Positions 1,544-52,744 of a DNA stretch of 64,000 nt are shown here, piece by piece (the stretch's first letter is position 1; each line of letters starts with the position of its first letter). Below the pieces are notes generated by a model. The model was not told where the DNA came from, did no database searches, and worked only from the letters and a program-made list of their open reading frames with translations. Made by a program: the position numbers and the translations under genes. The DNA is from Thiothrix unzii (GTDB lineage: Bacteria; Pseudomonadota; Gammaproteobacteria; Thiotrichales; Thiotrichaceae), in contig NZ_CP072793.1 of the NCBI RefSeq assembly GCF_017901175.1, positions 186,001 to 250,000 on the forward strand. The letters are read 5' to 3'.

Positions 1544-1716
1544 GATCAATGCTCCTAAAATGAGTGGTTTGGAACCAACCCGTGTCTGGCTGGTATGGGT
1601 TAATCATGAACGGCGTGCGTTGCTGGAATGTGCAGTGAATGTAAAGTTTTGTGTAGATTTGCTGCCACGACCCGATCGGGGCAGAATGGGCGGATCGTAT
1701 TTTCAGGAGTTTTACC

Positions 1717-2112: not shown

Positions 2113-2135
2113 ATTCAGATGGATCACATTGCTGC

Positions 2136-2170
2136 TGATTTTTTGTAACAATGGATGTTACAAAAAATCA
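2136..2170. terminator. Perfect 15-bp inverted repeat downstream of gloA
   Basis: Arms TGATTTTTTGTAACA and its exact reverse complement are separated by a 5-base loop (ATGGA). The T-run lies inside the stem, so the structure could end transcription from either side. It could equally be an operator-like palindrome. It starts 24 bases after the gloA stop. Confidence 0.5.
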
Positions 2171-2264
2171 ATTGACCAAAATATAGTCAATAGCTTATAA
2201 CTAAAACAAGTGGTTTGTTATTAATCAAATCATTTCCCTGTAAATCATCAACAAAGGATTATTC

Positions 2265-2546
2265 ATGGCTAATAAAATTACCCGCGTGCTTGCAACGCTC
2301 ATTACTGCTTCTGGTATCTTGGTTAGCGCAAATGCAATGGCTTGTAGCGAACATGATTACTTAGGTTCTGTTTGCCTTGTAGCTGCCAGTTATTGTCCTC
2401 AAGGATTTGCACCAGCAGATGGTTCAGCGACATCAAATCAAATGTTGAAATCTATTTTGGGTTCAGACAAGCTTCCATCTTTGCAGGCTCCAGCGGGAAC
2501 TAAATATTGTGTATCCGTAGCAGGCCCTTATCCGACACGCCCTTAA
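2265..2546 (+). CDS. Small secreted Cys-containing protein (tail-collar-like motif)
   Basis: 93 residues with a Sec signal peptide (MANKITRVLATLITASGILVSANAMA, cleavage after about residue 26). The mature part has four cysteines, and the segment YLGSVCLVAASYCPQGFAPADG recalls the phage tail-collar / microcystin-dependent-protein motif (YLGEIR...FAPxGWALCDG). Small exported proteins with this motif occur in various gammaproteobacteria; their function is unknown to me. The cysteines suggest disulfides in the periplasm or outside the cell. The gene is AT-richer than its neighbours and stands alone, preceded by AAAGGA, which suggests recent acquisition. Confidence 0.65.
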   Translation: MANKITRVLATLITASGILVSANAMACSEHDYLGSVCLVAASYCPQGFAPADGSATSNQMLKSILGSDKLPSLQAPAGTKYCVSVAGPYPTRP

Positions 2547-2707
2547 TTTTTAACGATAATTTATCGAGACATTATTCAATATTTGCCCCGTCTATCGCAT
2601 GGTGGGGCTTTTCTCTCAGGCATTGTTTTAATGATGCCTAATTTTTATAGTTTGCGAGTTCTGGATGAGCGCAAATATTTAACGCTGCATTCCAAGCTGT
2701 TCCTGCG

Positions 2708-2760
2708 GGTATACTCACAATCCATGTTGTTGGATACTTGATCGGGAGCAAACACTATGA
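2708..2760 (+). pseudogene. Remnant: 3' end of a second GNAT gene
   Basis: Read in the frame ending at the TGA at 2758-2760, this stretch encodes GYTHNPCCWILDREQTL-stop. That is almost the same as the end of the intact neighbouring GNAT protein (GYTHHPRCWILDREQTL-stop). Nothing further upstream in this frame resembles a GNAT domain, so it is the tail of a lost tandem copy. The stop overlaps the next ATG (ATGA), as it does in the intact copy. Confidence 0.65.
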
Positions 2761-2790
2761 CCCAACTCAAACTCTATGACCACCCCATTT
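2708..2790 (+). repeat. Imperfect direct repeat, copy 1 (copy 2 at 3189-3272)
   Basis: About 83 bp, repeated downstream of the GNAT gene with roughly 13 differences. Both copies contain the last 17 codons of a GNAT gene, an ATGA stop/start overlap and the first dozen codons of a following frame (MTQLKLYDHPIS here, MTQLKLYSYPIY in copy 2). The pattern fits a tandem duplication of a GNAT-plus-next-gene unit followed by deletions. Confidence 0.7.
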
Positions 2791-3242
2791 CCGGCGGCGA
2801 TTTTGGCTTACCTCGCCCGCCGCTACATCCTATGACGATTCAGTACCAGATAAATACCCCCATTTCGGCAGACCAATTCATCGACCTGCTGCGTCGCTCT
2901 ACCTTGGGCGAACGCCGCCCCATCGACGACCGCGAATGCATGGAAGGCATGGTAAACAACAGCAACTTGCTGGTGACAGCGTGGGATGGCGACCAACTGG
3001 TGGGCGTGGCGCGTTCCATGACCGACTTTCATTACGCCTGTTACCTATCTGATCTGGCAGTTGACCAAAACTACCAGCGGCAGGGCATCGGCAAGCAACT
3101 GCAAATCCTCACCCAGCAGCAATTGGGCAGGCATTGTAAGCTGATACTGATTGCAGCTCCGGCGGCGAATGCGTATTACGGGCGGATTGGTTACACTCAC
3201 CATCCACGTTGCTGGATACTTGATCGAGAGCAAACGCTATGA
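2757..3242 (+). CDS. GNAT-family N-acetyltransferase
   Basis: 161 residues if started at the ATG overlapping the upstream remnant. The GNAT fold proper begins near residue 26 (MTIQYQINTPIS, ATG at 2832). The acetyl-CoA-binding motif A is LSDLAVDQNYQRQGIGKQL (about residues 97-115), followed by AAPAANAYYGRIGY. Substrate unknown. The first 25 residues (MTQLKLYDHPISGGDFGLP...) are not part of the domain and repeat at the start of a short frame downstream. They look like the 5' end of a different gene fused on by rearrangement. Translation could start at 2757 or 2832; no strong ribosome site decides. Confidence 0.8.
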   Translation: MTQLKLYDHPISGGDFGLPRPPLHPMTIQYQINTPISADQFIDLLRRSTLGERRPIDDRECMEGMVNNSNLLVTAWDGDQLVGVARSMTDFHYACYLSDLAVDQNYQRQGIGKQLQILTQQQLGRHCKLILIAAPAANAYYGRIGYTHHPRCWILDREQTL

Positions 3243-3272
3243 CTCAACTCAAACTCTACAGCTACCCTATTT
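3189..3272 (+). repeat. Imperfect direct repeat, copy 2
   Basis: Second copy of the repeat at 2708-2790. It carries the true 3' end of the GNAT gene, an ATGA overlap and a 25-codon open frame at 3239-3316 starting MTQLKLYSYPIY. That frame is cut short and overlapped by the HNH gene starting at 3300. The MTQLKLY-P start resembles glutathione-S-transferase N-termini, but too little remains to say so. Confidence 0.65.
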
Positions 3273-3299
3273 ATCGTTACCAACAACAATTAGGTCAAT

Positions 3300-4061
3300 A
3301 TGGGAATCTCAAATAAAACTAGGAAGGTCTTATGGGGGCGATCAGGCAATCGTTGCGCGATGTGTCGGAAGGAGCTTGTAGCTGACTCGACCGCTGCCGA
3401 CAATGAATCCGTTATTGGAGACGAATGTCATATTATTTCGGGACAAATTAATGGACCGAGGCACGACATCGTATTTCCAGTTGATCAAATCGACGCTATC
3501 GACAATCTCATTTTATTGTGCAAAGTCCATCACAAGATCATTGATGATCAGTGCGAAACTTATACAGTCGGCTTACTTCAGTCCCTCAAATCGAATCATG
3601 AGCAATGGGTCAGAACAGCACTAGAGCAATCGACACATGAAGGAATAAGGATTCGTCAGGTTACAGAAAACATACCCAGCCATTTGGTTCGGTTGATGAC
3701 TGGTCAAGACTTGTTGACAATTTTGTCCAATGCACATGGCTACCAATTTGAACACGATGATCCGAAGTCGGAGACAGAAACCAACCTAATCGCTTCATTT
3801 CTGCAAGAAGCTCAAGATTATGGTGAATTATCAGCAGATCTTGAGGCTGGAGATAGGGTTCAAACTGCTTATCGACTTTCGCTTTTGCTCAATGAGCTTG
3901 AGGAAGGTGGATTCTGGGCATTTGGCAGCCGTGAAGTGCGAAAACTTGAAGGTGGAGTCGAAACACCTTCTGACTTCACCATATCAATTCTCCGCATAGT
4001 TAGGTCGACCAATTCGGACATTGTGAAAGTAGATTTGGAGATTTCAGATGAAAAAATCTAA
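3300..4061 (+). CDS. HNH-endonuclease-like protein with C-terminal extension
   Basis: 253 residues. The N-terminal 85 residues form an HNH zinc-finger nuclease module: CAMCRKEL (first Cys pair), ECHIISGQINGPRHD (catalytic His region) and NLILLCKVHHKIIDD (C..HH of the second half). The remaining 170 residues are mostly helical, charged and not recognised; they may be a sensing or targeting part. Such stand-alone HNH proteins are often anti-phage or mobile-element nucleases. Base composition is clearly AT-richer than the flanking metabolic genes, and the gene sits beside a broken duplication, which suggests horizontal gain. The ATG lies in the tail of the truncated MTQLKLY frame. Confidence 0.75.
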   Translation: MGISNKTRKVLWGRSGNRCAMCRKELVADSTAADNESVIGDECHIISGQINGPRHDIVFPVDQIDAIDNLILLCKVHHKIIDDQCETYTVGLLQSLKSNHEQWVRTALEQSTHEGIRIRQVTENIPSHLVRLMTGQDLLTILSNAHGYQFEHDDPKSETETNLIASFLQEAQDYGELSADLEAGDRVQTAYRLSLLLNELEEGGFWAFGSREVRKLEGGVETPSDFTISILRIVRSTNSDIVKVDLEISDEKI

Positions 4062-4183
4062 TTGCTCGAATATCCGTAATCACCTGATGGCAAATACAGC
4101 GACAACGATAATATCCCTATACATAGCTGAAGAACTATCTATTAAAGTATAAAACACAAGGTAGTTTTGGGCTGTATTTGGAT

Positions 4184-4203
4184 AAAATACAAGGGTATTT
4201 TTT
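4184..4203 (+). terminator. Possible terminator after the HNH gene
   Basis: The small hairpin AAAATAC-AAGG-GTATTTT runs into two further Ts. It is weak and AT-rich, and lies between the HNH gene and the convergent EamA transporter gene. Confidence 0.35.
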
Positions 4204-4207
4204 GCTC

Positions 4208-5068
4208 TCAGGATACCCGCCGGTTATGCAACCACAACAGCAGCCCCGCGCCCACGATCAGCCCGCTTCCCACAAAGAAATTCCACCCCAGCACATCCTG
4301 AAACAGGAACACGCTATATAACGTCGCTGCCACCACCTGCGCATTCAGCCAAGGCGACAGTTCCGACGCGGTGATTAGCGTATACGCCTTGATCAGCAGG
4401 AAATGCCCAATCGCACCGAACGCGCCCATGCTAATCAGCAGCAGCCATTGCAGCGCATCGGGCGTTTTCCACCACAGCGGCACGAGGAAACTCAGCACCA
4501 CTGCGCCGACAATCGAGGTATAAAACAGCGAGGTGCGCGGATCATCCACACCCGCCACTTTACGGGTCAGCAGAAAATACAGTGCCAGCAGCAGCGAGGC
4601 AAAAAACGCCAGCAATAACGCCGGTTCAAAGGTCTGAAAACCGGGGCGAATAATCACCAGCACCCCGACAAACCCGGCAGCAACCGCTAATAAATGACGC
4701 GGCAAAATACGTTCCCCCAAGAATATGCCCGCGAATAAGGTGACGAGTACCGGCGACAAATACATCAACGCCGTCGCTTCCGCCAGACTCACCGTCTTGA
4801 TCGCCATGTACAGCAAGGTGTTAATGCCGACCATGCACAAGCCGCGCAACAACTGCGTTTTCGGCGCACGGGTCACAGCAAAATGGCGCAAACCCTGCCC
4901 ATAAAACAGCAGCGACACGATAATGCTGTGGAACAGGAACCGCGCCCACGTCACCTGAAAAGTCGAAAACTCGCGCATCAGGAATTTCCCCAACGAATCC
5001 ATTCCCGCCAAAATGACGGAGGCAATGATCGTAAGGACGATGGCGAACAGGGCAGGACGGTTTTTCAT
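4208..5068 (-). CDS. EamA/DMT-family transporter
   Basis: About 286 residues with ten predicted membrane segments in two EamA repeats of five, typical of the drug/metabolite transporter superfamily (inner membrane; substrate not predictable). Markers are GMDSLGKFLMREFSTFQVTWARF in the first repeat and FGAIGHFLLIKAYTLITASELSPW in the second. The start MKNRPALFAIVL at 5068 puts the first membrane segment at the N-terminus and is preferred over an in-frame ATG 18 bases upstream. It is divergent from a second EamA gene whose ATG lies only 43 bp away, so the two share a promoter region. Confidence 0.88.
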   Translation of the reverse strand: MKNRPALFAIVLTIIASVILAGMDSLGKFLMREFSTFQVTWARFLFHSIIVSLLFYGQGLRHFAVTRAPKTQLLRGLCMVGINTLLYMAIKTVSLAEATALMYLSPVLVTLFAGIFLGERILPRHLLAVAAGFVGVLVIIRPGFQTFEPALLLAFFASLLLALYFLLTRKVAGVDDPRTSLFYTSIVGAVVLSFLVPLWWKTPDALQWLLLISMGAFGAIGHFLLIKAYTLITASELSPWLNAQVVAATLYSVFLFQDVLGWNFFVGSGLIVGAGLLLWLHNRRVS

Positions 5069-39719: not shown

Positions 39720-40349
39720 TTACGCCGTCGCCCGCGCATTAATGCTGGCAATGGCGCGTTCCGCCGCTTGCATGGCTTGTGCGGTTTCCGCCTCACTGCC
39801 CATCATAATCAACCGTCCGAATGCGCCGTAAGCTTTCACATCCACTAAGGTGACGTGCGCGGCTTTTTCAGCTTCGTTGGCAGCGTAAACAATGTAACCG
39901 GCGGGTTCGGTTTCAAAAATAAACATGCTTTTGCCCGGTAACAACATCGAACCGTGACGCAATTGGCGGTTGATCAGGGTGGCGTGGTCGGGGGTAATGG
40001 CGCGGATAATTTCTTTCCAAGCGACGCGACACGCCATGCGGTTTTCGACATCAGCGTAAATCTCACGCAATACCGCTTCGCCCGCCGAAGTGACTTCACT
40101 TTGGTTACGGTAATGGACTTCCATTGAACCAAAAGCGCGTTCTACCACCTGTTGACCGAGGCGCACATTGGTGGCTTTGAGCGCAATGTCACTGAGGCGG
40201 TGTACTGCCATGCCCGGAGCCACTTCAATCCACAAACAGGCATCGCCGGGAATCGGCAAAAAACCTTGCGAGGAGGTCGCCAAATACGACGCAAGCTGGG
40301 GTTGCAACGAATCAATAAAAGAATACACACGTAAGGTTACATTATTCAT
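39720..40349 (-). CDS. csoS1D: Carboxysome shell protein CsoS1D (tandem-BMC pseudohexamer/trimer)
   Basis: 209 residues from ATG 40349. The N-terminal half ([57 protein letters not shown]) and the C-terminal half ([54 protein letters not shown]) match the two BMC domains of CsoS1D. CsoS1D trimers form large gated pores in the alpha-carboxysome shell. It overlaps the 3' end of cbbR by a few bases, so both are on one transcript, divergent from the main cso operon. Confidence 0.88.
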
Positions 40350-41331
40350 GGGCATCAGGCTCAGGTGACGGCTTCAAATGATAGGCGGGTAAGTGCAAGC
40401 GGTTAACGTTGATGTCTTCCCACATCCGCGCCCCGTCTTGCAACAGAAAATCGAGAAAGCGTTTGGAGGTATTGGAAAGTTTTTTGCCTTTTAAATGCAC
40501 TGCGTGCCAACGGCGTATTAGCGGAAAATGTTGCACGTCTAATACGGTGAGCAAGCCTGCTTCCAGTTCGAGGCGCAAATTGTGAATCGACAGTACTGAA
40601 ATGCCCAACCCTGCCATGACCGCTTGCTTGATGGCTTCACTGCTGCCGAGTTCCATGTAGACATTGGCTTCTAGCCCATGTTCGGCAAACAGCCGGATGC
40701 GGGCAGCCCGCGTGCCGGAACCCTCTTCCCGTGACAAAAAGCGTTCTTGGGCAATGCGTTCCAAGGTAATGTTGCGTTCCCCAGCCAAGGGGTGATTGGG
40801 CGGGGCAATCACCACAATGGGGTTATCAAGGAAATATTCAGCGGCGAGTTCCAGATTACTGCCGGTGGGAATCGTCCCCATGATAACCAAGTCATCCAGA
40901 TTATCTTCCAAACGGCGGATGACTTTGGCTTGGTTGGTAATGGTGAGGCGTGGCTCTACCCGTGGGTAATCCTTGAGGAAAGTGCCGAGTAAATGCGGCA
41001 TGAAATACTTGGCGGTGGTAATCGCGGATATGTTCAGCGGGCCTTTGACTCCTTCCTCCATGCCAATTATGTCTTCGTTGAGTACCCGCAAACGATCCAA
41101 AACATCACGACAAGCTTCAAACAACTCACGTCCAGCTTCGGTGAGGAACAGGCGTTTGCCAAGCTGCTCGGTTAACGGGATACCGATGCTCTCCTCTAGC
41201 CGTTTGATCTGGATGGATACCGCCGGTTGGGTCAGGTGCAACTCTTCCGCCGCACGGGTAAAGGACAAATGCTTCCCTACGCTATAAAACAGGCGCAACT
41301 GGTGCAAGGTGATATGACGCAGGTTCATCAT
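40342..41331 (-). CDS. cbbR: LysR-type regulator of CO2 fixation CbbR
   Basis: 329 residues. N-terminal winged helix [49 protein letters not shown] and an effector domain with [52 protein letters not shown], typical of CbbR. It stands divergent to the RuBisCO operon, the usual arrangement, and probably activates the two repeated promoter-like sites at 41391 and 42141. An in-frame second Met (41328) is an equally good start. Confidence 0.93.
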
Positions 41332-42181: not shown

Positions 42182-42240
42182 ATCTGACGCACCGAGGTCA
42201 GAGCAAGATTCCCTAGAGCAACTTCTGCAAGGAGAAGATG

Positions 42241-43659
42241 ATGGCAAAGAAATACGAAGCCGGGGTGAAGGAATACCGGCAAACCTATTGGCAGCCTGAC
42301 TATATCCCGTTGGATACGGATATTCTGGCGTGCTTTAAAATCACCCCGCAACCGGGTATTGACCGTGAAGAAGCGGCGGCGGCAGTCGCAGCAGAATCTT
42401 CCACGGGTACTTGGACGACCGTGTGGACAGACTTGCTGACCGACATGGATTACTACCGTGGTCGTGCGTACATGATCGAAGATGTACCGGGCGACGATGC
42501 CTGCTTCTATGCCTTCATCGCTTACCCGATTGACCTGTTTGAAGAAGGTTCAGTAGTCAACGTCTTCACCTCATTGGTCGGTAACGTATTCGGCTTTAAA
42601 GCGATCCGCGCCCTGCGTCTTGAAGACGTGCGCTTCCCGATTGCTTACGTAAAAACCTGTAACGGCCCGCCGCACGGCATTCAGGTTGAACGTGACAAAA
42701 TGAACAAATACGGTCGCCCCATGCTGGGTTGCACCATCAAGCCGAAGCTGGGTTTGTCTGCGAAAAACTACGGTCGTGCGGTATACGAATGCTTGCGCGG
42801 TGGTCTGGACTTCACCAAAGACGACGAAAACATCAACTCGCAGCCATTCATGCGCTGGCGTGACCGCTTCCTGTTCGTGCAGGACGCGATTGAAACCTCA
42901 GAAGCGCAAACCGGCGAACGCAAAGGTCACTACCTGAACGTTACGGCACCTTCTCCTGAAGAAATGTATGAGCGTGCTGAATTTGCCAAAGAAATCGGTT
43001 CACCGATTATCATGCACGACTTCCTGACTGGCGGTATGACGGCTAACACCGGTTTGGCACGTTGGTGCCGTAAAAACGGTATGTTGCTGCACATTCACCG
43101 GGCGATGCACGCGGTACTCGACCGTAACCCGCACCACGGTATCCACTTCCGTGTACTGACCAAAGCACTGCGTTTGTCCGGTGGCGACCACCTGCATACC
43201 GGTACTGTCGTGGGCAAGCTGGAAGGCGACCGCGCTTCTACTTTGGGCTGGATTGACCTGTTACGTGAATCTTACGTACCAGAAGACCGTTCACGCGGTA
43301 TTTTCTTCGACCAAGACTGGGGTTCAATGCCTGGTGCATTCGCGGTCGCATCCGGTGGTATCCACGTCTGGCACATGCCTGCACTGGTGAACATCTTCGG
43401 TGATGAGTCTGTTCTGCAATTCGGTGGCGGCACGCTGGGTCACCCATGGGGCAACGCGGCAGGTGCAGCGGCTAATCGTGTAGCATTGGAAGCGTGCGTT
43501 GAAGCGCGTAACCGTGGTGTTGAACTGGAGCGCAACGGTAAGGAAATCCTCACCAAAGCGGCACAGTCTAGCCCTGAACTCAAGATTGCCATGGAAACAT
43601 GGAAAGAAATCAAGTTCGAGTTCGACACCGTTGACAAACTTGATGTTCAGAACCGCTAA
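42241..43659 (+). CDS. cbbL: RuBisCO large subunit, form IA (carboxysomal)
   Basis: 472 residues from the second of two adjacent ATGs, which stands six bases from AAGGAG. Catalytic features: N-terminal [25 protein letters not shown], the carbamylated lysine in [24 protein letters not shown] (the first Lys), the [14 protein letters not shown] segment, the His in HIHRAMHAV, loop 6 [10 protein letters not shown] and the C-terminal [15 protein letters not shown]. Sequence and context (csoS2 etc.) place it in form IA with alpha-carboxysomes. It fixes CO2 onto ribulose-1,5-bisphosphate inside the shell. Confidence 0.98.
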
Positions 43660-43677
43660 TCACAGGAGTTGCAAACC

Positions 43678-44007
43678 ATGGCTGATTTTCAGGATTACAA
43701 ACAAACCGTCAAGTACGAAACCTTTTCTTACTTGCCTGCGCTGACGGCAGACCAAACCCGCCAGCAAATTCAATACATCGTGTCACAGGGCTGGAACCCA
43801 GCTATCGAACACGTGGAGCCTGCCAGATCCCACAAGTATTACTGGTTCATGTGGAAGCTGCCCATGTTCGGTGAGCAAAGCGTTGACCGCATCCTGTCAG
43901 AGATCGAAGCGTGCCATCGGGAATACCCCAACCACCACGTGCGTCTGATCGGTTACGACAACTACACCCAAAGCCAAGGCACATCCTTTGTTGTGTACCG
44001 CGCTTAA
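43678..44007 (+). CDS. cbbS: RuBisCO small subunit
   Basis: 109 residues from ATG 43678 ([23 protein letters not shown]), with CAGGAG before it. Typical features are [32 protein letters not shown] and [23 protein letters not shown]. It forms the L8S8 enzyme with CbbL, and the groove between the subunits is the docking site for CsoS2 N-terminal repeats. Confidence 0.98.
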
Positions 44008-44029: not shown

Positions 44030-46435
44030 ATGCCTGCACAAACTGCAAATAGCGCGGATAAAGCCCGCGAAGCAGCCGCCGCGCGTCGGCGGGCTACTGC
44101 CCAGCGCAGTGCCGGTCAGTCACGCCCGGTAGTTGCTGTTAAGGCAGTACCTGCGGCATCCACCCGACCTGAACCTGTACAAGCTGCCCCGGTGGCAGCT
44201 TATGCAGCCCCGTCCACCGCTGTTGTCGTTGCCATCAATGCCAGTGCGAACAAAGCGCATGAAGCGGCTGAACGCCGCCGAGTCGCCGCGCAACGCAGTC
44301 AGGCACAAGCACGGCAGCGTTCTCGTCCGCAGGTGGCATCTGTATCTTCTGTTCCCGCTTATTCCAGCAGTACTGCATTGGAAGACAACTTCGGCAGTCT
44401 GTTTGGCAGTGAACCGGTGACAGAAGAAGCAATGGATGCGTTGTGCGAAATGGTCGATGCTGACCCTAATGCCTTAGGTGTTAGCGGTAACAGTGTGCGT
44501 GCCATTTGCCGTAACCGTCGCCAGCAACAGGCAACGCAAGGCAAATCTGCCGTACCCCGTCGTCCTGGTAGCACTCCTAACGGGCGTAACCCACGCTTGA
44601 GTGTCGCTCCGCAAGGTCGCGATGCTGCCCGCCAACATCGGGTCAAAGCCGCACGGGGGCAACGTCCCGATGCACCAGCCGCACCACGTCCCACCGGACG
44701 GATGCGTCCGCAACGTGTTCCTCCCAAGGTTGAGATTGACGAGACCCTGTTGGGAAACGCAGTGACCGGTACTCAGGTTAATCGTATTACCGCTAATACG
44801 ATTACTGGGGGCGAATCCGGTATCTGCCGCACGGTGACAGGAACGGAATACTTGGGTGCAGACCATTTCGATACCATTTGCGGGACACGTCCTGAACCGA
44901 ATCCGCCGAAAGTCGGGTTAACGGTCACAGGTCGCGGTCTGGCAGTTTCCGGTACAGAAGTGGGTCGCTCTAACAATGTGACGGGTGATGAAAGTGGTAG
45001 TTGCCGTGCAGTGACGGGTACAGAGTACTTAGGGCTGGAGCAATTTTCAGCTTTTTGTGAAAACAAAGGGTTGACGACTCGCGCTCCTAAAGTAGTGGCT
45101 GGTACGACGGCACGCAAACAGTTAACCGTAACGGGTGTTGATGAAGCACGCCTGCAACCTGTCACCGGCAATGAGTCGGGTGCGGGACGCAGCATCACGG
45201 GGTCGCAATACTCCGATGCGGGTGCTTCACGCCTGACGATCAATGGCCCACAGAAAGTTGCCTTAACACACACCGTCGCCGGTCGTGAAGTGACAGGCAC
45301 AGAAGTAGGACGTTCGACCAAGGTAACAGGTGATGAATACGGCAGTTGCCGCCCGGTAACGGGTACGGAATACGTGTCCAGCGAGCAGTTTCAATCCATT
45401 TGTAACACGCAAGCACCCGCACGCTCTGCCAAAGTGGGTGAGGATAACAGCCAGCAAGGACAGCGTATTACCGGCAATCTCGTCAATCGTACTGAAAAAG
45501 TCACAGGAAACGAGGCGATAGCAGTGGGTAAAGTAACCGGTTCACAGTATGGCGACAGCCAAGTGGCAAATCGTGCGCCACCGAAAGCGTATCCGATGCA
45601 AACCCTTGCGGGGCGCAGTCTGACAGGCAATCGGGTGGATCACAGCCCAAAGCTCACCGGTGATGATCGTGGCGGCTGCTTGCCCGTCACCGGTACTGAA
45701 TACTACGGCAAGGAACATTTTGCCGGGTATTGTGCAAGCGAATCGCCACAACACCATCATGCGCATGGTCACGACCACCATCATGACCATGAACACGGCG
45801 AAGGTGAACACGGCTTCTGCTGTGACGAGTGCGCGGCTGACCATTTCGCGAAAGTGAAAGTGGCGCAGGCGCGGCGCATGTTGCCACCGCCTCCGGTGAT
45901 GTGCCACGGCTGTGCAGACAGTGCAGTGGCAGAAGCGAAACAGGTTGCTCAACAAGCGGCAGCAGGTTTCAGCGTCCAATCACCGGCACGGGCGGCACTC
46001 GGACGTGTCACCGGCAATGCTTACGAAGGTGCAGGGCGCATTACCGGCCCCGGCAATCGTGGCAACCAGACCGTTTCCGGCACACCGGAATTCCGTTACC
46101 AGCAGCCGGTGGCAGCCACTGTTACCAGCGAGCCGGTAGTAGCGGAACGTGCCGAACCCGCAGCCTCGCGTGTTACCGGTGACGGACGTGACAACCTCCG
46201 TATCACCGGCGACGACTGGGGTCGCAGCCAACGCATGACAGGTACCGAAGGGAAGTGGGCGCAAAACCGCAACCCGACGTTACGTGGTGCGCAACAAGCC
46301 ATGGCAATGGTGAGTGCTCACGCTAATAAGTCACTGGAACGTCCTGAAGCTCCACCTATCGCTAACGTGACAGGCAGCAGCGGCAACAGTGGCAAAGGTG
46401 CGCTGATCACCGTTTCCGGTGGGGCAAGAGGTTAG
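44030..46435 (+). CDS. csoS2: Carboxysome assembly scaffold CsoS2
   Basis: 801 residues, largely disordered and repetitive. N-region: basic helices KAREAAAARRRATAQ (about 9-23), KAHEAAERRRVAAQRS (about 77-92), RAICRNRRQQQ and AARQHRVKAARG, the RuBisCO-binding repeats. M-region (about 240-570): six repeats built from VTGTEVGRS..VTGDESGSCR.VTGTEYLG, which contact the shell. Then comes a His/Cys-rich stretch (H575-H605: twelve His, C597, C598, C601, and CHGC 625-628) before the C-region (RVTGNAYEGAGRITGPGNRG, ITGDDWGRSQRMTGTEGKWA). The His/Cys stretch is not a general CsoS2 feature that I know and could bind metal. Confidence 0.96.
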   Translation: MPAQTANSADKAREAAAARRRATAQRSAGQSRPVVAVKAVPAASTRPEPVQAAPVAAYAAPSTAVVVAINASANKAHEAAERRRVAAQRSQAQARQRSRPQVASVSSVPAYSSSTALEDNFGSLFGSEPVTEEAMDALCEMVDADPNALGVSGNSVRAICRNRRQQQATQGKSAVPRRPGSTPNGRNPRLSVAPQGRDAARQHRVKAARGQRPDAPAAPRPTGRMRPQRVPPKVEIDETLLGNAVTGTQVNRITANTITGGESGICRTVTGTEYLGADHFDTICGTRPEPNPPKVGLTVTGRGLAVSGTEVGRSNNVTGDESGSCRAVTGTEYLGLEQFSAFCENKGLTTRAPKVVAGTTARKQLTVTGVDEARLQPVTGNESGAGRSITGSQYSDAGASRLTINGPQKVALTHTVAGREVTGTEVGRSTKVTGDEYGSCRPVTGTEYVSSEQFQSICNTQAPARSAKVGEDNSQQGQRITGNLVNRTEKVTGNEAIAVGKVTGSQYGDSQVANRAPPKAYPMQTLAGRSLTGNRVDHSPKLTGDDRGGCLPVTGTEYYGKEHFAGYCASESPQHHHAHGHDHHHDHEHGEGEHGFCCDECAADHFAKVKVAQARRMLPPPPVMCHGCADSAVAEAKQVAQQAAAGFSVQSPARAALGRVTGNAYEGAGRITGPGNRGNQTVSGTPEFRYQQPVAATVTSEPVVAERAEPAASRVTGDGRDNLRITGDDWGRSQRMTGTEGKWAQNRNPTLRGAQQAMAMVSAHANKSLERPEAPPIANVTGSSGNSGKGALITVSGGARG

Positions 46436-46445
46436 GAGGTTACAG

Positions 46446-48005
46446 GTGAACAGCCGTCAAGCCCAGCAAGCATTGCGTCTGGCAAGCCGAACTCAAGGCA
46501 AGCCGCAGACGTTACGCAAGGCAACACGCCAACCAGCTCCGGCTGCCTTGGCGGTGGAGCCGGGTACACGGTTAACACCTGTGGCAAACGGGGCGGTGGC
46601 GAGTTCTCGCCGCCACCCGCTGGCTAACCAACACGCCAATGCCCGTTTGGCGCATTGTGAAGAAAGTGTTAAAGGGCGTTTTGAAGCCATCATCCCTGCC
46701 CTGCAAGCCATCGCTGGTTTGCATCTGGGGGACGGTTTCAGCGCACAAGCACAAGCGATTGCGGAAGCCCAACTGGGCTACTGCTTGCCGGAACGCATCC
46801 TCAACGATGCGTGGGTCAGCGGTGTGGACATGAAAGCCCTGTATGCGTATTGCGCGTTTCAGGCTTTGAAGCTGGCAACCGAACAGTTTGCCAACGATTT
46901 ACGCCAACAGGTGGAAGCGGTGCAGGATACCCGCAACTTCTTCCTCGACTGTGGCTTTCACGCGGTGGACATCAGCCCCTGTGCCGATGGTCGCCTCAAA
47001 GGTTTGATGCGTTACATTTTGCGTCTGCCTTTGACTTCGTTTACCCGGCGCAAGGCGTATGCCGGGGCATTATTCGACGTGGAAACGGACGTGCGCCACT
47101 GGATGGCAACCGAATTACGCCGTTTCCGCGAAGGTGTGCCAACCACCGTCGATGCAGGGACTCGTTACCTGAAAATCGCGGTGTATCACACCAGTAGCAG
47201 TTCCCCCTGCCATGAGGGATGTGCTGCCCACGGGAGTAACGATCATCAAGCGGTGGCAGCGGCTCTGGATCGCCTAAACCAGTTCCGCCAGGCTATTGAG
47301 AATTCGTTCTGTTGTGGTGCCAGCACAGATATTTTGTTGATCGGGGTTGATACCGACACCGATGCCATCCGGGTACATATTCCCGATGGTAACGGTGAGC
47401 TTTCCCCGCAACGCTTTGTGGATAACAAGGTACTGTTCCATGCCACGCTGGGTTTGTCAGCAGATCAAGCAGGCTTGGCAGTACACGAGGCGGTCGAAGC
47501 CGCGATTAACCAGCATGGCTGGGGAACCGGCAAAGGCGCACCGCATGATGGGATGCGACGGCTGGTGACTAACCTGCTGATCAATAACCTGTCACAGATG
47601 GATTACGTGATGGATTTGCACAATGGGCAATACGCCGACATCGGGCACGCCGAACGCTACATCAGCGTCGGGGATGGTTTCGAGGAAGTGCAAATCCGCA
47701 ATGTGGCGTATTACGCCCACCTGCACACGCTGGAAGAAGGCGTGGCAGACATGGATGTCGGCATCAAGATTTTCAAAGGCTTGAACGTGAATCACGGTCT
47801 GCCTGTGCCGGTAGCGATTCACTACCGTTACGATGCCGGTGTACCGGGGTCACGCGAACGCACAGTGGCGAAAGCCCAGCGGGTTGCCGCAGCCATCCGC
47901 AGCCGTTACGCGGCATTGGTGGAACAGGGTTTGTTACTGTGCCATTTGTCAGTGCAAGACACGCCCGTCGGTAGCCCGGTGGAAGTTGTGGAGGATGTGG
48001 CATGA
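46446..48005 (+). CDS. csoSCA: Carboxysomal beta-type carbonic anhydrase CsoSCA (CsoS3)
   Basis: 519 residues from a GTG at 46446, eight bases after TAGGAGG; a longer GTG frame from 46419 would overlap csoS2. An N-terminal disordered Arg/Gln-rich tail (about 1-55), probably for RuBisCO binding, precedes the helical domain and the catalytic domain. The catalytic domain has the beta-CA signature C-x-D-x-R in DISPCADGRLKGLMRYIL and later zinc ligands in VYHTSSSSPCHEGCAAHGSND. It converts bicarbonate to CO2 inside the carboxysome. It overlaps csoS4A by 4 bp. Confidence 0.96.
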   Translation: MNSRQAQQALRLASRTQGKPQTLRKATRQPAPAALAVEPGTRLTPVANGAVASSRRHPLANQHANARLAHCEESVKGRFEAIIPALQAIAGLHLGDGFSAQAQAIAEAQLGYCLPERILNDAWVSGVDMKALYAYCAFQALKLATEQFANDLRQQVEAVQDTRNFFLDCGFHAVDISPCADGRLKGLMRYILRLPLTSFTRRKAYAGALFDVETDVRHWMATELRRFREGVPTTVDAGTRYLKIAVYHTSSSSPCHEGCAAHGSNDHQAVAAALDRLNQFRQAIENSFCCGASTDILLIGVDTDTDAIRVHIPDGNGELSPQRFVDNKVLFHATLGLSADQAGLAVHEAVEAAINQHGWGTGKGAPHDGMRRLVTNLLINNLSQMDYVMDLHNGQYADIGHAERYISVGDGFEEVQIRNVAYYAHLHTLEEGVADMDVGIKIFKGLNVNHGLPVPVAIHYRYDAGVPGSRERTVAKAQRVAAAIRSRYAALVEQGLLLCHLSVQDTPVGSPVEVVEDVA

Positions 48006-48253
48006 AGATCATGCGCGTGGAAAAAACGCTGGTATCCACCAACCGCCTTGCCGAACTGGGGCATAAGGGCTTGTTAGTGGTACAGGAAAAAGTTGGCGGA
48101 GCGCGGCAAGTGGCAGTGGATGCTATCGGTTGCGTCCCCGGTGACTGGGTGATTTGTGTGGGTTCCTCTGCCGCTCGCGAAGCCGCTGGCAGTAAGGAAT
48201 ACCCTTCCGACCTCACCATCGTCGGCATTATCGACCGCTGGAATGGCGAGTAA
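48002..48253 (+). CDS. csoS4A: Carboxysome shell vertex pentamer CsoS4A
   Basis: 83 residues, BMC-P (CcmL/EutN) family: MKIMRVEKTLVSTNRLAELGHKGLLVVQE, VAVDAIGCVPGDWVICVGSSAAREAAGSKEYPSDLTIVGIIDRW. Pentamers cap the vertices of the icosahedral shell. The ATG overlaps the csoSCA stop (ATGA); csoS4B follows after ten bases. Confidence 0.97.
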   Translation: MKIMRVEKTLVSTNRLAELGHKGLLVVQEKVGGARQVAVDAIGCVPGDWVICVGSSAAREAAGSKEYPSDLTIVGIIDRWNGE

Positions 48254-48263
48254 GGGGTAGCAC

Positions 48264-48509
48264 ATGGAAATCATGCGGGTACAGTCTGATTTGGTCGCCA
48301 CCCAGCGCGTACCTGGCTTGAAGAATATGTCCTTGCGGGTTTTGGTGGACAGCAAGGGCGCTAAGAATGTGGCTTGCGATCCGGTGGGCGCACCGCCCGG
48401 AGCGTGGGTTTTCACCATCAGCGGATCAGCGGCGCGTTACGCGCTCAAGGATCCCAAGGTGCTAACGGATTTGACCATCGCCGGAATCATCGACCATTGG
48501 GACGAATGA
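48264..48509 (+). CDS. csoS4B: Carboxysome shell vertex pentamer CsoS4B
   Basis: 81 residues, BMC-P family, paralogue of CsoS4A: MEIMRVQSDLVATQRVPGLKNMSLRVLVDSKG, VACDPVGAPPGAWVFTISGSAARYALKDPKVLTDLTIAGIIDHWDE. The start is preceded by AAGGGG. It forms the second type of vertex cap. Confidence 0.97.
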   Translation: MEIMRVQSDLVATQRVPGLKNMSLRVLVDSKGAKNVACDPVGAPPGAWVFTISGSAARYALKDPKVLTDLTIAGIIDHWDE

Positions 48510-48557
48510 CCGCCGCTGGGTTAATTAATGACTGATTTTTTACGAGAGGATATTCAA

Positions 48558-48875
48558 ATGGCTGAAGTAACTGGTATTGCCTTAGGCATGATTGAAACAC
48601 GCGGTCTGGTACCGGCTATCGAAGCCGCTGATGCCATGACTAAAGCGGCTGAAGTACGTCTGATTGGTCGCCAGTTCGTTGGTGGCGGTTATGTGACTGT
48701 ACTGGTACGTGGTGAAACAGGTGCAGTTAACGCTGCTGTCCGTGCAGGTGCTGACGCTTGTGAGCGTGTTGGTGACGGCTTGGTTGCTGCACACATTATC
48801 GCGCGCGTTCACTCTGAAGTGGAATGCATCCTGCCTAAAGCAGGCGAAACCCCTGACAACGCTGTTATCGGCTAA
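48558..48875 (+). CDS. csoS1: Carboxysome shell hexamer CsoS1, copy 1 (short C-terminal extension)
   Basis: 105 residues from ATG 48558 (MAEVTGIALGMIETRGLVPAIEAADAMTKAAEVRLIG), one BMC-H domain. The pore and assembly motifs RQFVGGGYVTVLVRGETGAVNAAVRAG and HSEVECILPK are present. Compared with the next gene it has an extra tail AGETPDNAVIG. The frame is open 30 bases upstream, but GAGGATATTCAA before this ATG and the paralogue both support it. Confidence 0.96.
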   Translation: MAEVTGIALGMIETRGLVPAIEAADAMTKAAEVRLIGRQFVGGGYVTVLVRGETGAVNAAVRAGADACERVGDGLVAAHIIARVHSEVECILPKAGETPDNAVIG

Positions 48876-48917
48876 GTCACTTTGATTGATCGTTAATCGT
48901 TTTTAAGGAGAATAAAC

Positions 48918-49208
48918 ATGGCACAAGTAACTGGTGTTGCTTTAGGTATGATTGAAACACGCGGCCTCGTTCCTGCTATCGAAGCAGCCGATGCGATGAC
49001 CAAAGCCGCTGAAGTCAAGCTGATCGGTCGTCAATTCGTTGGCGGTGGTTATGTAACTGTTTTGGTTCGTGGCGAAACTGGCGCGGTTAACGCAGCGGTG
49101 CGTGCAGGTGCTGACGCTTGTGAGCGCGTGGGTGACGGTTTGGTAGCGGCGCACATTATTGCCCGCGTCCACTCCGAAGTCGAAACCATTCTGCCTAAGG
49201 CGGAGTAA
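48918..49208 (+). CDS. csoS1: Carboxysome shell hexamer CsoS1, copy 2
   Basis: 96 residues, one BMC-H domain, about 95 percent identical in protein to the preceding copy over the shared length. DNA identity is lower, mostly at third positions, so the duplication is old and the proteins are under strong constraint. It has a strong ribosome site (AAGGAG). It is the major facet protein of the shell. A large G/C-rich inverted repeat follows immediately. Confidence 0.97.
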   Translation: MAQVTGVALGMIETRGLVPAIEAADAMTKAAEVKLIGRQFVGGGYVTVLVRGETGAVNAAVRAGADACERVGDGLVAAHIIARVHSEVETILPKAE

Positions 49209-49214
49209 AACCTG

Positions 49215-49318
49215 ACCCCTCACCCCCTAGCCCCCTCTCCCTCAAGGGGCGAGGGGGAACAAGAAAACATTCTCTTAGCCCCTATCCCCTTGAGGGAGAG
49301 GGGTTGGGGTGAGGGGTA
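49215..49318. repeat. Large G/C-rich inverted repeat between csoS1 and acRAF
   Basis: The left arm (about 49216-49250, with CCCCCTCTCCCTCAAGGGG) and right arm (about 49286-49317, CCCCTTGAGGGAGAGGGG...) are near-complements of about 31 of 34 positions around a 35-base centre. In RNA it would be a very stable hairpin. It could protect or separate the highly expressed shell-gene part from the weaker downstream part of the operon. It is the same element type as at 13822 and 50350. Confidence 0.85.
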
Positions 49319-49341
49319 TCTTCAACCAAAGGAGCACTATC

Positions 49342-49602
49342 ATGACCGCAACCCAACCCAGCAGCGCATGGAATGTCCAGCAACGCCCAGCGGCAATGAC
49401 CCGCCGTTATGAATTTGCCTCCTACGCTGAAACACGCACGTTTTTGGATCAACTAGCCGCGCTTTCCGAACGCACGGGTTTGCATCCGAATCTGAATTTC
49501 GCCCGCAATCATGTGAGCGTGAGCATCAATGCGGAAGGTGACGCCTTAACGGATGCGGAGTATGCCTACGCTGCCGAAGCTGATGCTTTCGCCCAACAAT
49601 AA
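49342..49602 (+). CDS. acRAF: Alpha-carboxysome RuBisCO assembly factor acRAF (pterin dehydratase-like)
   Basis: 86 residues from ATG 49342, preceded by AAAGGAGC. The PCD-like fold is seen in MTRRYEFASYAETRTFLDQLAALSERTGLHPNLNFARNHVSVSINAEGD, but the dehydratase catalytic His pattern is degenerate (P-N-L-N-F where the enzymes have H-H-P). This matches the chaperone family that helps fold or assemble form IA RuBisCO and is usually encoded downstream of csoS1. Confidence 0.88.
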   Translation: MTATQPSSAWNVQQRPAAMTRRYEFASYAETRTFLDQLAALSERTGLHPNLNFARNHVSVSINAEGDALTDAEYAYAAEADAFAQQ

Positions 49603-49628: not shown

Positions 49629-49859
49629 ATGCCTACAGCAAAATCCAGCAAACCCAAAGCGGTGAAACCTGCCGCAGCCGCCCCAGTGGTGCTTGAAGCA
49701 CCCGAAGCAGCAGTAGTACCAGAAGAGACCGTTCCAGCCGTTGCTGATGTACCGCAACCGCCGCAAGCACCCACAGTGGCACCAGCCGCGCCAGCCGCAG
49801 CCGACGACCTGAATCAACCGGGTTTCCCGCTGCACCCTGAGCGTGTTTGGCCTGATTAA
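49629..49859 (+). CDS. Short disordered Pro/Ala-rich protein with C-terminal Trp motif
   Basis: 76 residues: a Lys/Ser-rich start (MPTAKSSKPKAVKPAAAAP), an acidic Pro/Ala/Val middle without predicted structure and a distinct end PGFPLHPERVWPD. It has its own ribosome site (CGAGG) and is followed closely by the next gene. Low complexity, acidic composition, position after acRAF and a near-terminal Trp resemble alpha-type McdB carboxysome-positioning proteins as I remember them. No parA/mcdA lies nearby. The assignment is tentative; an unrelated docking-peptide protein is equally possible. Confidence 0.6.
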   Translation: MPTAKSSKPKAVKPAAAAPVVLEAPEAAVVPEETVPAVADVPQPPQAPTVAPAAPAAADDLNQPGFPLHPERVWPD

Positions 49860-49875
49860 CCTGCGAGAAGACACC

Positions 49876-50343
49876 ATGATTTCCAGAGTAACCACTTCCG
49901 CTTCCATGCAGTCACGCGCTCCGCGTGGTGCTGTCACCGGGGCTTATGTTGGCAATACCACCCCGCCTCCCGTGGATGTGGATGCCCTGTTCAAACGTTG
50001 GGATGCTGCCTTGCATACCCGCAGTGTTGATGCTGTGGTTGCCTGTTACAGCCATGATGCGGTATTGCTGCCTACGGTTGCCGATGAGCCGCACGTTGGG
50101 CATAAGTCGATTGCTGACTATTTCAAGCATTTTCTCGCCGGTTCACCACGCGGTGCTGTCACCGAACGCCATGTGCAAGTCGGCTGGGATATGGCAGTGG
50201 ATATGGGTACGTATTCCTTCGTGTTTGCCGATGGACGCAAAGTGACCGCACGTTATACCTTTGTGTATCGCCCGCGTGCCGGAGAATGGCTCATTACCCA
50301 TCACCATTCGTCCGTTCTGCCAGAACAATTCTGCAAGCTCTGA
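49876..50343 (+). CDS. CaMKII-AD/SnoaL-fold protein, probable iota-type carbonic anhydrase family
   Basis: 155 residues from ATG 49876. After a short basic N-terminal tail (about 1-33) comes a cystatin-like NTF2 fold: VDALFKRWDAALHTRSVDAVVACYSHDAVLLPTVAD, HVGHKSIADYFKHFLAGSP, RHVQVGWDMAVDMGTYSFVF, RYTFVYRPRAGEWLITHHHSSVLPEQ. The HHHSS at 142-146 followed by xLPE is the signature I associate with COG4337/LCIP63 iota-carbonic anhydrases; related SgcJ/EcaC proteins share the fold. It has no signal peptide, so it is cytosolic or carboxysomal. Located between the disordered gene and cbbO within the carboxysome operon. Confidence 0.68.
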   Translation: MISRVTTSASMQSRAPRGAVTGAYVGNTTPPPVDVDALFKRWDAALHTRSVDAVVACYSHDAVLLPTVADEPHVGHKSIADYFKHFLAGSPRGAVTERHVQVGWDMAVDMGTYSFVFADGRKVTARYTFVYRPRAGEWLITHHHSSVLPEQFCKL

Positions 50344-50410: not shown

Positions 50411-52744
50411 ATGGCGTTACAACTCAGCGATTATCAGGACATTATTGATGATTTGGGTGATACCACCAAAGAAGTGCTGGAAGCCAACTGGCAAGAAGCC
50501 GCACGGGTGTTTTCCCCACGTGGGCTGGATACTTATTTGCGCGGTGCTGCTGGGCTGAAATCGCTGGGGCGCGGTACGGATTTGGTCGAATCTTTCTTGG
50601 AAGCGGCCCCACTGGTTGCCAGAGAAGTGGGCGAACAAGCCGTTTCCGAACTGTTATCCGCAGCCATTCAGATGTTCTCCAAAACCAGTGCCAGTGTCTT
50701 GGTGCTGTTGTTTTCCACCGCACCCACAGCGGCAGCGCGGATGGGCGAACTCGAACTGTTCAAAGGCTACCTGAGCCTGTTGAACCATCTGTTAGCGCAA
50801 GCCCCGCGTGCTTTGCGCCCAATGCTGGAAAAGCTCGATGTATTGTTGGCGCACCTGACGCTGGGCGGGTTGCGCCGCTGGGCAATGTGGGGTATTTCCG
50901 CTTACCGCAACGATTTTAACGGACAGGCTGAGTATTTCGGGCTACAAAACGACGCGGCAATGAACGTGCTGAAGAAAGAACAGCGCGGGGTATTGTTCGT
51001 CGATGTGCAACGCCGCCTGATTATGTATTTACGCGCCTTGTGGGGACGCGACTTTTTCTTGCGCCCGACTTCCGGTGACTTTGAAACCCGCGAAGGCTAC
51101 CGCCCGTATATCGAAGCCAGTTTTATCCACCTGCCGGATGCGTTTGACGATTTCACCCTGCCCAATGGCGAAAAAGCCAAGGGCATGGATGTGTACCGCG
51201 CGGCGGCTGCGCATACTGCCGCGCATATCGTGTATTCCCGTTATTATGACGATGCCCAAGGGTTGACCCCGTTGCAACAAGCAATGGTTGGGGTAGTGGA
51301 AGACGCACGGGTGGAAACACTGGCGGTGAAGGACTTCCCCGGCTTGCTGACCTTGTGGAAAAACCTGTTACCGGCGGATTCGCAAGACAACAGTGCCGCG
51401 AGTGTGTTGGGGCGCATGGCGCGTGGCTTGCTGGACAAAGATTACCGCGATGATCACTCGCTGGTTGAAGCCGCCACTGCCTTGTTTGCGCAACACACCG
51501 AGCGTTTACACGACCAAACTTTGGCGTTGGACATTGGTTTGCAACTGGCGGAACAGGCTAAAGCCTTGGATTTCAAATACAACCCGCGTCGGGATCAGCC
51601 CACCAACCCCTACCGCGACGATAACCGCTACCTGTGGCAATCCCCCGACGATGCCGAAAACACCGTGTTATTGCCGGGACAAACCCAGCAAGTGCGCAAA
51701 TACGTCAGCATGATGGAAATGGTCATGGGGCTGGACGTGGAATACGCAGGCGATGACGCGCAAGAAATTTGGGTGCTGGAAACCGAATTCTTCCACGACG
51801 ACGGCACGACCCTCAATGAAAAAGAGGGCAAACAGCCGGTGGCATCGCCGGTGCATTACCCTGAATGGGATTACCAGACCCAACTGGAACGTCCCAACTG
51901 GGTAACAGTGCTGGAAAAACGCCCGAAACGCGGTGATCACACTGTGCTGGAAGTGGCGATTGAAAAGCACAAGCCACTGGTGCGGCGCATTAAAAACCTG
52001 ATCGAATCCATCCAACCGCAAGGCATGATCCGCCAACGCAATCAGGAAGACGGCGATACGCTGGATTTGAATGCCGCCATCCACGCGATGGTGGATATTC
52101 GCCGGGGTATCCAACCCAGCCCACGCATCAATATCCGCACGCACTTACAAATTCGCGACCTGTCGGTGCTGTTGTTAGTGGATTTGTCCGAATCAACCAA
52201 TGATCAGGTTCGGGGTGCAGAGGAAGGCGTAACGGTACTGGATATGGCGCGTGAGGCAACGGCACTGTTGGCGGAAGCCTTGGTAAAAATCGGCGACCCG
52301 TTTGCGATTCACGGCTTCGACTCCAATGGGCGGCACGACGTGGAGTATTACCGCTTCAAAGACTTTGACGCGCCCTATAACGAGACCGTCAAAGGGCGGC
52401 TGGAAGCCATGAAGGGCAAGCTGTCTACCCGCATGGGTGCAGCGTTGCGCCATGCCGGTTCGTTGCTGTCGCGGCGTGCCAGCCAGAAAAAATTGATTTT
52501 GTTGCTTACCGATGGGGAACCTGCGGACAACGATGTGCGTGACCCGCAATACTTACGCCAAGACACCAAAAAAGCGGTGGAAGAACTGGCGCGGCAAGGC
52601 ATTCAAACCTTCTGCCTGACGCTTGACCCGTATGCGGATGAATACGTGTCACGTATTTTCGGGCATAAGTACTACTTGATTCTCGATCAGGTCAGCCGTT
52701 TACCCGAAAAGCTGGCGATGCTTTATATTGGGATGACGAAGTAA
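50411..52744 (+). CDS. cbbO: RuBisCO activase adaptor CbbO (VWA-domain protein)
   Basis: 777 residues from ATG 50411, with AAGGAG upstream. The N-terminal helical region (ALQLSDYQDIIDDLGDTTKEVLEANWQEAARVFSPRGLDTYLRGAAGLKSLGRG) is CbbO/NorD-like. The C-terminal von Willebrand A domain (about 590-777) has the MIDAS motif LLVDLSESTNDQV. CbbO bridges the AAA+ hexamer CbbQ to inhibited RuBisCO so that sugar phosphates are released. No intact cbbQ is present in the window, although cbbQ normally precedes cbbO. Only a short cbbQ-like tail lies upstream of cbbL, so the motor must come from elsewhere. Confidence 0.94.
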   Translation: MALQLSDYQDIIDDLGDTTKEVLEANWQEAARVFSPRGLDTYLRGAAGLKSLGRGTDLVESFLEAAPLVAREVGEQAVSELLSAAIQMFSKTSASVLVLLFSTAPTAAARMGELELFKGYLSLLNHLLAQAPRALRPMLEKLDVLLAHLTLGGLRRWAMWGISAYRNDFNGQAEYFGLQNDAAMNVLKKEQRGVLFVDVQRRLIMYLRALWGRDFFLRPTSGDFETREGYRPYIEASFIHLPDAFDDFTLPNGEKAKGMDVYRAAAAHTAAHIVYSRYYDDAQGLTPLQQAMVGVVEDARVETLAVKDFPGLLTLWKNLLPADSQDNSAASVLGRMARGLLDKDYRDDHSLVEAATALFAQHTERLHDQTLALDIGLQLAEQAKALDFKYNPRRDQPTNPYRDDNRYLWQSPDDAENTVLLPGQTQQVRKYVSMMEMVMGLDVEYAGDDAQEIWVLETEFFHDDGTTLNEKEGKQPVASPVHYPEWDYQTQLERPNWVTVLEKRPKRGDHTVLEVAIEKHKPLVRRIKNLIESIQPQGMIRQRNQEDGDTLDLNAAIHAMVDIRRGIQPSPRINIRTHLQIRDLSVLLLVDLSESTNDQVRGAEEGVTVLDMAREATALLAEALVKIGDPFAIHGFDSNGRHDVEYYRFKDFDAPYNETVKGRLEAMKGKLSTRMGAALRHAGSLLSRRASQKKLILLLTDGEPADNDVRDPQYLRQDTKKAVEELARQGIQTFCLTLDPYADEYVSRIFGHKYYLILDQVSRLPEKLAMLYIGMTK

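Follow-up and report, generated by a model that had tools for sequence, protein, structure and literature searches.

How carbonic anhydrases (CAs) enter alpha-carboxysomes is an active question, and the cso operon of Thiothrix unzii gives it a particular form: does an operon with a gene for the carboxysomal enzyme CsoSCA also encode a second CA of an unrelated class, and would that second enzyme work inside the carboxysome? The locus lies in a stretch of 64,000 nucleotides (contig NZ_CP072793.1, positions 186,001 to 250,000; hereafter, the window) from an assembly that totals 3,724,392 bases over 8 contigs and has a completeness rating of 100%. From the window's letters and open reading frames, the original prediction had proposed an iota-type CA coexisting with CsoSCA in this operon, namely a 155-residue protein of CaMKII-AD/NTF2 fold with a C-terminal HHHSS motif, and on all of these points our results agree with it.

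On the forward strand the genes run cbbL, cbbS, csoS2, csoSCA, csoS4A, csoS4B, csoS1, csoS1, acRAF, mcdB-like, iota-CA and cbbO (Table 1), with 26 bases between acRAF and the mcdB-like gene, 16 between the latter and the iota-CA gene, and 67 between the iota-CA gene and cbbO. The iota-CA gene had been placed between acRAF and cbbO, which is correct as to order, although its direct upstream neighbor is the 76-aa mcdB-like gene and not acRAF. The cso genes, including the iota-CA gene, are likely to share one transcript. No excess of promoters or terminators was found (4 and 8 sites, compared with shuffled means of 8.0 and 17.2). Because CsoSCA is full length, the iota-CA would be the second CA of the operon. 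A degraded CsoSCA in need of rescue was rejected as an explanation on the TIGR02701 score of 703.5 bits. The CsoSCA catalytic Cys/His/Asp pattern, at what we presume to be its positions, appears intact by eye.

Several other features of the operon were observed. The alpha-McdB signature is given as R(V/I)WPD (PMC11321042); no McdA gene adjoins the mcdB-like gene, which looks like an orphan McdB, and of 13 cso loci compared, 12 have a gene with a similar RVWPD-like ending. Between csoS1 and acRAF lies a large imperfect inverted repeat (49215-49317; arms of 34 nt with 82% complementarity, flanked by perfect outer arms of 12 nt) that may uncouple shell-gene from accessory-gene expression, and a C/G-run sequence resembling it by eye occurs between the iota-CA gene and cbbO. 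Additionally, what looks like a metal-binding insert is seen in the window CsoS2: a His/Cys-rich stretch, HHHAHGHDHHHDHEHGEGEHGFCCDEC (residues 575-601; 45752-45832), ahead of the C-terminal repeats.

Table 1. Features of the cso locus and of the iota-CA gene in the window.
Feature	Position	Strand	Evidence or remark
BMC-domain protein, CsoS1D-like (name inferred)	39720..40355	-	PF00936 1.5e-06; adjoins LysR-type gene
LysR-type gene, here named cbbR	40342-41331		Adjoins CsoS1D-like gene
cbbL and cbbS, form I RuBisCO	42238..44007	+	cbbL by domain; cbbS by place and length; orthologues
csoS2, 25 (V/I)(T/S)G motifs	44030..46435	+	PF12288
csoSCA, full-length carboxysomal beta-type CA	46419..48005	+	TIGR02701 703.5 bits, cut-off 241
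csoS4A, csoS4B and two csoS1 shell genes	48002..49208	+	csoS1 pair NF053791; csoS4A/B by place and length; orthologues
acRAF	49342..49602	+	PF01329; ATG chosen inside ORF 49309-49602
mcdB-like, 76 aa, biased composition, ends HPERVWPD	49629..49859	+	R(V/I)WPD consensus of PMC11321042
Very probable iota-class (SgcJ/EcaC, COG4875-like) CA gene, 155 aa	49876..50343	+	Family models, fold, motif, purifying selection
N-terminal extension, residues 1-33	49876..49974	+	pLDDT < 50 for residues 1-19; protein sequence conserved
VTGAY, residues 20-24: one CsoS2-like (V/I)(T/S)G motif, then Tyr	49933..49947	+	Identical in six orthologues
Thr67 (LLPT), inferred counterpart of catalytic Thr106 of all2909	50074..50076	+	Alignments; homologue mutagenesis, PMC8132391
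HHHSS, residues 142-146, inferred to contain His197 and Ser199 counterparts	50299..50313	+	Motif defined in PMC8425729
cbbO, VWA-domain RuBisCO activase subunit	50411..52744	+	VWA domain; named by domain and position; orthologues at cso loci

The best domain of the window protein is Pfam CaMKII_AD (PF08332, 9e-13), and the protein matches NCBIfam TIGR02246 (SgcJ/EcaC) above its curated cut-off (48.1 compared with 33.95 bits). The closest solved sequence is 3h51 from Xanthomonas campestris (1.1e-26; 5.4e-45 by profile). An AlphaFold2 model reached a mean pLDDT of 79.9, with blocks of residues 31-150 at 84-96 and low confidence over the first 19 residues, and its top Foldseek match was again 3h51 (E 3.3e-14, TM 0.71/0.77, rmsd 7.0). 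Ketosteroid isomerases and SgcJ, lower in the Foldseek ranking, also match the fold and sequence; since proteins other than CAs adopt the NTF2/CaMKII-AD fold, the fold alone is no proof of a CA. The (H)HHSS motif has been described as an iota-CA signature, and an SgcJ/EcaC protein carrying it, from Burkholderia territorii, as an active CA (PMC8425729); PMC8132391 treats 3h51 as an apparent iota-CA. In the same source, alanine at Thr106, Tyr124, His197 or Ser199 of all2909 abolishes activity, and His and Ser mutants of Bn86287 retained reduced activity. The active-site residues that the original prediction sought are present: T67, Y82, H144 and S146, invariant in a 6-row alignment and in the six Thiothrix orthologues, would be the counterparts of the all2909 residues, a mapping drawn from motifs and spacing instead of coordinates. 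Taken together, these findings make it very probable that the window protein is a member of the iota class.

Its subtype departs from what had been proposed. The motif had been credited to a combined COG4337/LCIP63 group; HHHSS is indeed there, but the label merges two types, as LCIP63 is COG4875 (PMC8132391). By profile, the window protein is far closer to 3h51 (5.4e-45) than to the metal-free COG4337 enzyme 7c5x (1.3e-14, with significant stretches in the C-terminal part only), and the metal-independent subtype was rejected on this comparison of 3h51 with 7c5x. In the Foldseek ranking, 3h51 stands first, and neither 7C5V nor 7C5X is among the best 50 of 1252 matches. The protein is therefore assigned by sequence profile to the SgcJ/EcaC (COG4875) type, from which metal independence does not follow.

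Window-type iota-CAs occur in 6 of 16 Thiothrix genomes, that of the window included, at 95-100% identity, and all six copies sit in the cso operon between the mcdB-like 76-aa gene and cbbO. Two named records, T. caldifontis DSM 21228 and Thiothrix sp. UBA5583, encode proteins 98% and 95% identical to that of the window. Across the 15 pairs of orthologues dN/dS ranges from 0.00 to 0.08, and these low values, with the six orthologues themselves, led us to reject an artefact or random ORF. The ATG start is favored, an upstream in-frame GTG being missing in one of the six orthologues (G054). Within the 33 codons of the N-terminal extension, 12 vary and 10 of these only synonymously; in the iota-CA domain, 40 of 122 codons vary, 35 of them synonymously only. 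As variation in both parts is mostly synonymous, the disordered tail is kept about as firmly as the fold.

The gene is nevertheless patchy in its distribution. Among 63 genomes of the order, iota-CA (E <= 1e-10) was found in 9 and CsoSCA (E <= 0.001) in 15, of which 14 were above the cut-off; within Thiothrix, 4 of 10 CsoSCA-positive genomes have no operon iota-CA. A tree built from cbbL, csoSCA and cbbO of 12 genomes unites G061 with the carriers in one group (98/99) and leaves G062 outside. Both G061 and G062 lack the window-type gene; in G061, nested among the carriers, a small gene is followed directly by cbbO. Because G061 keeps CsoSCA in the absence of the iota-CA, the latter is dispensable there. 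On this tree, the pattern would be explained most simply by a single gain in the genus and a single loss where CsoSCA remains. The window-type iota-CA is accessory.

The class-level idea of a carboxysomal iota-CA is not new: PMC12628692, citing Wieschollek et al. 2024 (AEM 90:e01075-24), places one in Thiomicrospira carboxysomes instead of CsoSCA, and so the expectation that a second CA of this kind would be unusual was half right. What we add are counts of CsoS2, CsoSCA and iota-CA in the family of the Thiomicrospira-like genome G115, the motif-bearing extensions described below and an FKBP-fused form in two CsoSCA-less genomes. Neither the Thiothrix operon iota-CA nor CsoS2-like motifs in iota-CAs were found among the literature matches listed; Wieschollek et al. 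2024 may say more.

In the 62-genome G115 family, iota-CA is present in 10/10 genomes with CsoS2 and no CsoSCA, in 15/37 with both and in 0/15 without CsoS2; the difference between the CsoSCA-less and CsoSCA-positive sets is significant (Fisher p 0.0008), with the caveat that related genomes are not independent events. A class-wide draw of 369 gammaproteobacterial genomes yielded CsoS2 in 72, CsoSCA above the cut-off in 69 and iota-CA (E <= 1e-15) in 18. Three had CsoS2 without CsoSCA (G105, G115 and G178); G105 was set aside, its csoS2 running off the contig end, and the other two both have iota-CA, compared with 7/69 CsoSCA-positive genomes (Fisher p 0.014, again over related genomes). With the ten G115-family members and G178, and G105 set aside, iota-CA is found in all 11 CsoSCA-less, CsoS2-positive genomes examined. 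A phylum-wide CsoSCA draw put 2 of 398 genomes above the cut-off, that of the window and G629, and a scan of the collected genome contigs for iota-CA gave 6 loci.

Linkage was counted in 33 of the 39 genomes (the six Thiothrix operon carriers left aside, positions rounded, and other contigs of draft assemblies scored as elsewhere). In 10 of 11 CsoSCA-less genomes, csoS2 and the iota-CA gene share a strand and are no more than 15 kb apart; of the 22 CsoSCA-positive genomes, 4 have iota-CA within that distance of csoSCA on the same strand and 2 on the other. The G115 cso cluster has two tagged iota-CA genes that differ from each other (L087, 3340-3879 and 5276-5824), a 258-aa ORF with no Pfam match at the place expected of csoSCA, genes for SbtA and P-II and, by eye, a SulP-looking gene; G857 and G864 also have two iota-CA copies each. 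In G807 and G826, both CsoSCA-less, an FKBP_C domain precedes the iota-CA domain (L122 11877-12569 and L123 3202-3924); the match is 5e-8 in the G826 protein, with which the G807 protein aligns, and the genes lie in cso clusters without csoSCA, second downstream of cbbO. Co-occurrence with cbbO, which the original prediction had suggested as a check, is seen in the six Thiothrix operons, at both FKBP loci and in G284, where iota-CA is downstream of cbbO and a cbbR-like gene, but not in the four CsoSCA-positive Thiothrix genomes that have no operon copy, nor at the G115 cso locus, where cbbO was not found. Elsewhere, tagged iota-CA genes were seen directly behind a membrane protein that by eye resembles a bicarbonate transporter of the SulP type (L051 of G253, 1558-3463; L130 of G830, 2989-4910; L129 of G821, 2454-4524).

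The iota-CAs of carboxysome genomes lack a signal peptide-like stretch and, the FKBP pair excepted, begin with an extension carrying (V/I)(T/S)G motifs, the motif that takes part in CsoS2 shell binding (PMC11365436). According to the same paper, CsoS2 with this motif mutated binds less well and no longer forms condensates in plain buffer, and growth in air is dramatically lost. The 36 tagged sequences have extensions of 47-79 residues with two motifs in 29 and one in 7; an early motif often reads 'ISGTxGI' and a later one 'ITG' or 'VTG'. Extensions in all copies were measured from the first ATG in frame, except that a GTG was picked by hand for L044 and L046-L048. By a fixed pattern, at least one motif is present in 38 of 39 CsoS2-positive genomes with iota-CA, compared with 1 of 10 CsoS2-negative ones (Fisher 5e-8, related genomes; CsoS2 called in five Thiothrix genomes by BLAST to the window gene instead of PF12288, G826 scored through a VSG in its FKBP-fused part, and four iota-CAs from collected contigs, L004-L007, left out of this count). 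The one CsoS2-negative genome with a motif, G120, is an assembly 84% complete. Among the ten CsoS2-negative genomes, a signal peptide-like stretch was seen in six, and the copies of three (L063-L065) offer no extension that could be measured, with stop codons in the matched stretch of L064 and L065.

The extensions contain 70 motifs where shuffling predicts 5.8, a contrast drawn from related and not independent sequences. In 34 of the 36 tags, a T comes directly after the first motif. T is also the commonest residue after the motif in CsoS2 (181/494) and does not rank among the ten commonest in other ORFs (99 motifs). The criteria for choosing 'CsoS2' ORFs were length and motif number, which partly presets their motif counts but not this next-residue comparison. 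A profile of the tags showed no significant homology to CsoS2 (best match E 0.12, with scrambled CsoS2 reaching 0.24), so that the likeness, judged from these alignments, is at the level of the motif only. On a tree of 54 rows, with four near-identical Thiothrix rows dropped, the 36 tagged sequences form one group (99/95), and their tagging therefore reflects mainly a single retained evolutionary event and not many independent ones.

The window protein was compared with this group. A signal peptide was rejected, the maximum 12-residue hydropathy being 0.38, compared with 1.7-3.0 in ten other extended copies (six from CsoS2-negative genomes and four from named records). Its extension lacks the double tag of the Thiomicrospira type and has a single VTG with Tyr two residues on; at least one motif would arise in a shuffled extension with a chance of about 0.14, and, taken alone, the VTG would be weak evidence of targeting. 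A profile of the 36 tags reached the G054 orthologue only at E 6.4 and left the G048 orthologue unmatched at E <= 10. The free tree puts the Thiothrix operon proteins on a long branch (1.61) and not within the tagged group, but constraining them to join it improves the tree by 3.4 log units, and their joining is not rejected (AU p 0.59). Two cysteines found in 36/36 tagged relatives are missing from the window protein, which was either recruited separately or is a sister of the tagged group that evolves fast. In one Thiothrix genome, G055, a double-motif tagged iota-CA (L013) lies far away from the cso locus; the operon type and the tagged type thus both occur in the genus.

We consider it moderately probable that the window protein acts as a second, accessory carboxysomal CA beside CsoSCA. 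This reading builds on the computed class, fold, residues, operon position and selection, on the link of iota-CAs to carboxysome genomes and on the motif-bearing extensions of the relatives; counted against it are the single motif, the tag-profile miss, the long branch, the loss in G061, the fold and sequence matches to proteins other than CAs and the absence of 7C5V and 7C5X from the best 50 Foldseek matches. CO2 hydration, encapsulation and shell binding through the motif are what it would predict of the protein. The enzyme would be made from the cso operon and, because it lacks a signal peptide, would stay in the cytoplasm; it would be taken up during carboxysome assembly through its disordered N-terminus, with VTG-x-Tyr imitating CsoS2 contacts with shell hexamers, and would turn HCO3- into CO2 for RuBisCO at the inner face of the shell.

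A broader reading has, in our judgment, an even chance of being right: the iota-CAs of alpha-carboxysome bacteria would be a second line of CAs for the carboxysome, packed by means of a shell tag that mimics CsoS2 ((V/I)(T/S)G motifs, usually two, within a disordered extension in the place of the signal peptide of periplasmic relatives), serving as a backup to CsoSCA in many genomes and as its successor where CsoSCA was lost. Thiothrix would have a reduced version and two CsoSCA-less genomes an FKBP-fused one, and targeting would then have evolved in more than one way.

An active iota-CA with a cytosolic or membrane location instead of a carboxysomal one, serving for example at plentiful inorganic carbon or in recapturing leaked CO2, is unlikely. 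It would agree with the absence of a signal peptide-like stretch, with a targeting motif that is only weak and with the B. natans iota-CA, which is in the plastid stroma and not the pyrenoid (PMC8132391), but the gene sits among those for the shell, CsoSCA and cbbO, and a cytosolic CA short-circuits a bicarbonate-accumulating cell (PMC10614612). As such an enzyme would undo the CO2-concentrating mechanism, a free, leaderless CA encoded in a cso operon is not expected, and encapsulation is favored. Less likely again is a protein that is no longer a CA, an NTF2-like binder of sugar phosphate, RuBisCO, CbbO or shell that kept its motif by descent: NTF2-like proteins diverge widely in function (PMC8425729), and the branch length, the missing cysteines and the matches to ketosteroid isomerases and SgcJ would all suit it, but the invariant counterparts of the four all2909 activity residues and the low dN/dS argue against it. 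That the gene is a mere passenger, acquired with little effect on carbon fixation, would fit its absence from G061 and G062 but is improbable given strong purifying selection, the same place in 6/6 genomes and the retention of iota-CA by carboxysome genomes elsewhere, above all where CsoSCA is missing.

Should a short motif of the CsoS2 kind suffice to pack an iota-CA, it is a natural encapsulation signal, useful for engineering, and would explain how carboxysomes swap CAs. With two unrelated CAs in one operon, a single organism would also serve to test redundancy, CA exchange and any dependence of their use on conditions such as metal, redox or pH. The source of CA in CsoSCA-less carboxysomes was left open in PMC9164163, which names Nitrosospira and Pseudonocardia among others; neither is, by name, among the genomes of our 11/11 count, and the Thiomicrospira case has since been answered in print.

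Compared with known systems, the window iota-CA shares with the beta-type CsoSCA its operon and, as proposed here, its place and reaction, although the two families are unrelated; in H. neapolitanus, CsoSCA is packed into the carboxysome by contacts with RuBisCO and with the shell (PMC10614612, PMC12646314). With BteCA-iota of B. territorii and 3h51 of X. campestris, both of the COG4875 type, it has family model, fold and (H)HHSS in common. BteCA is reportedly a Zn enzyme. Prokaryotic iota-CAs are predicted to be exported (PMC8132391), unlike the window protein. The metal-free COG4337 enzymes all2909 (7C5V) and Bn86287 (7C5X) share its C-terminal HHSS and, on the mapping above, the Thr/Tyr/His/Ser set, but are more distant, with a Thr-Tyr spacing of 17-18 compared with 15. 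The CsoS2 scaffold and the iota-CA tags have in common the short motif, often followed by T, with no alignable homology beyond it. The nearest parallel is the carboxysomal iota-CA of Thiomicrospira, which we take the genus-g61 genomes to be: it is of the same class, encoded at a carboxysome locus and without a signal peptide-like stretch. The abstract of Wieschollek et al. reportedly describes iota-CA in carboxysome fractions and a high-CO2-requiring mutant, and mentions 'potentially other Bacteria'. The Thiomicrospira enzyme replaces CsoSCA and has two (V/I)(T/S)G motifs in 8 of 11 copies, whereas the window genome keeps a full-length CsoSCA and encodes, between an mcdB-like gene and cbbO, an iota-CA with a shorter extension and one motif.
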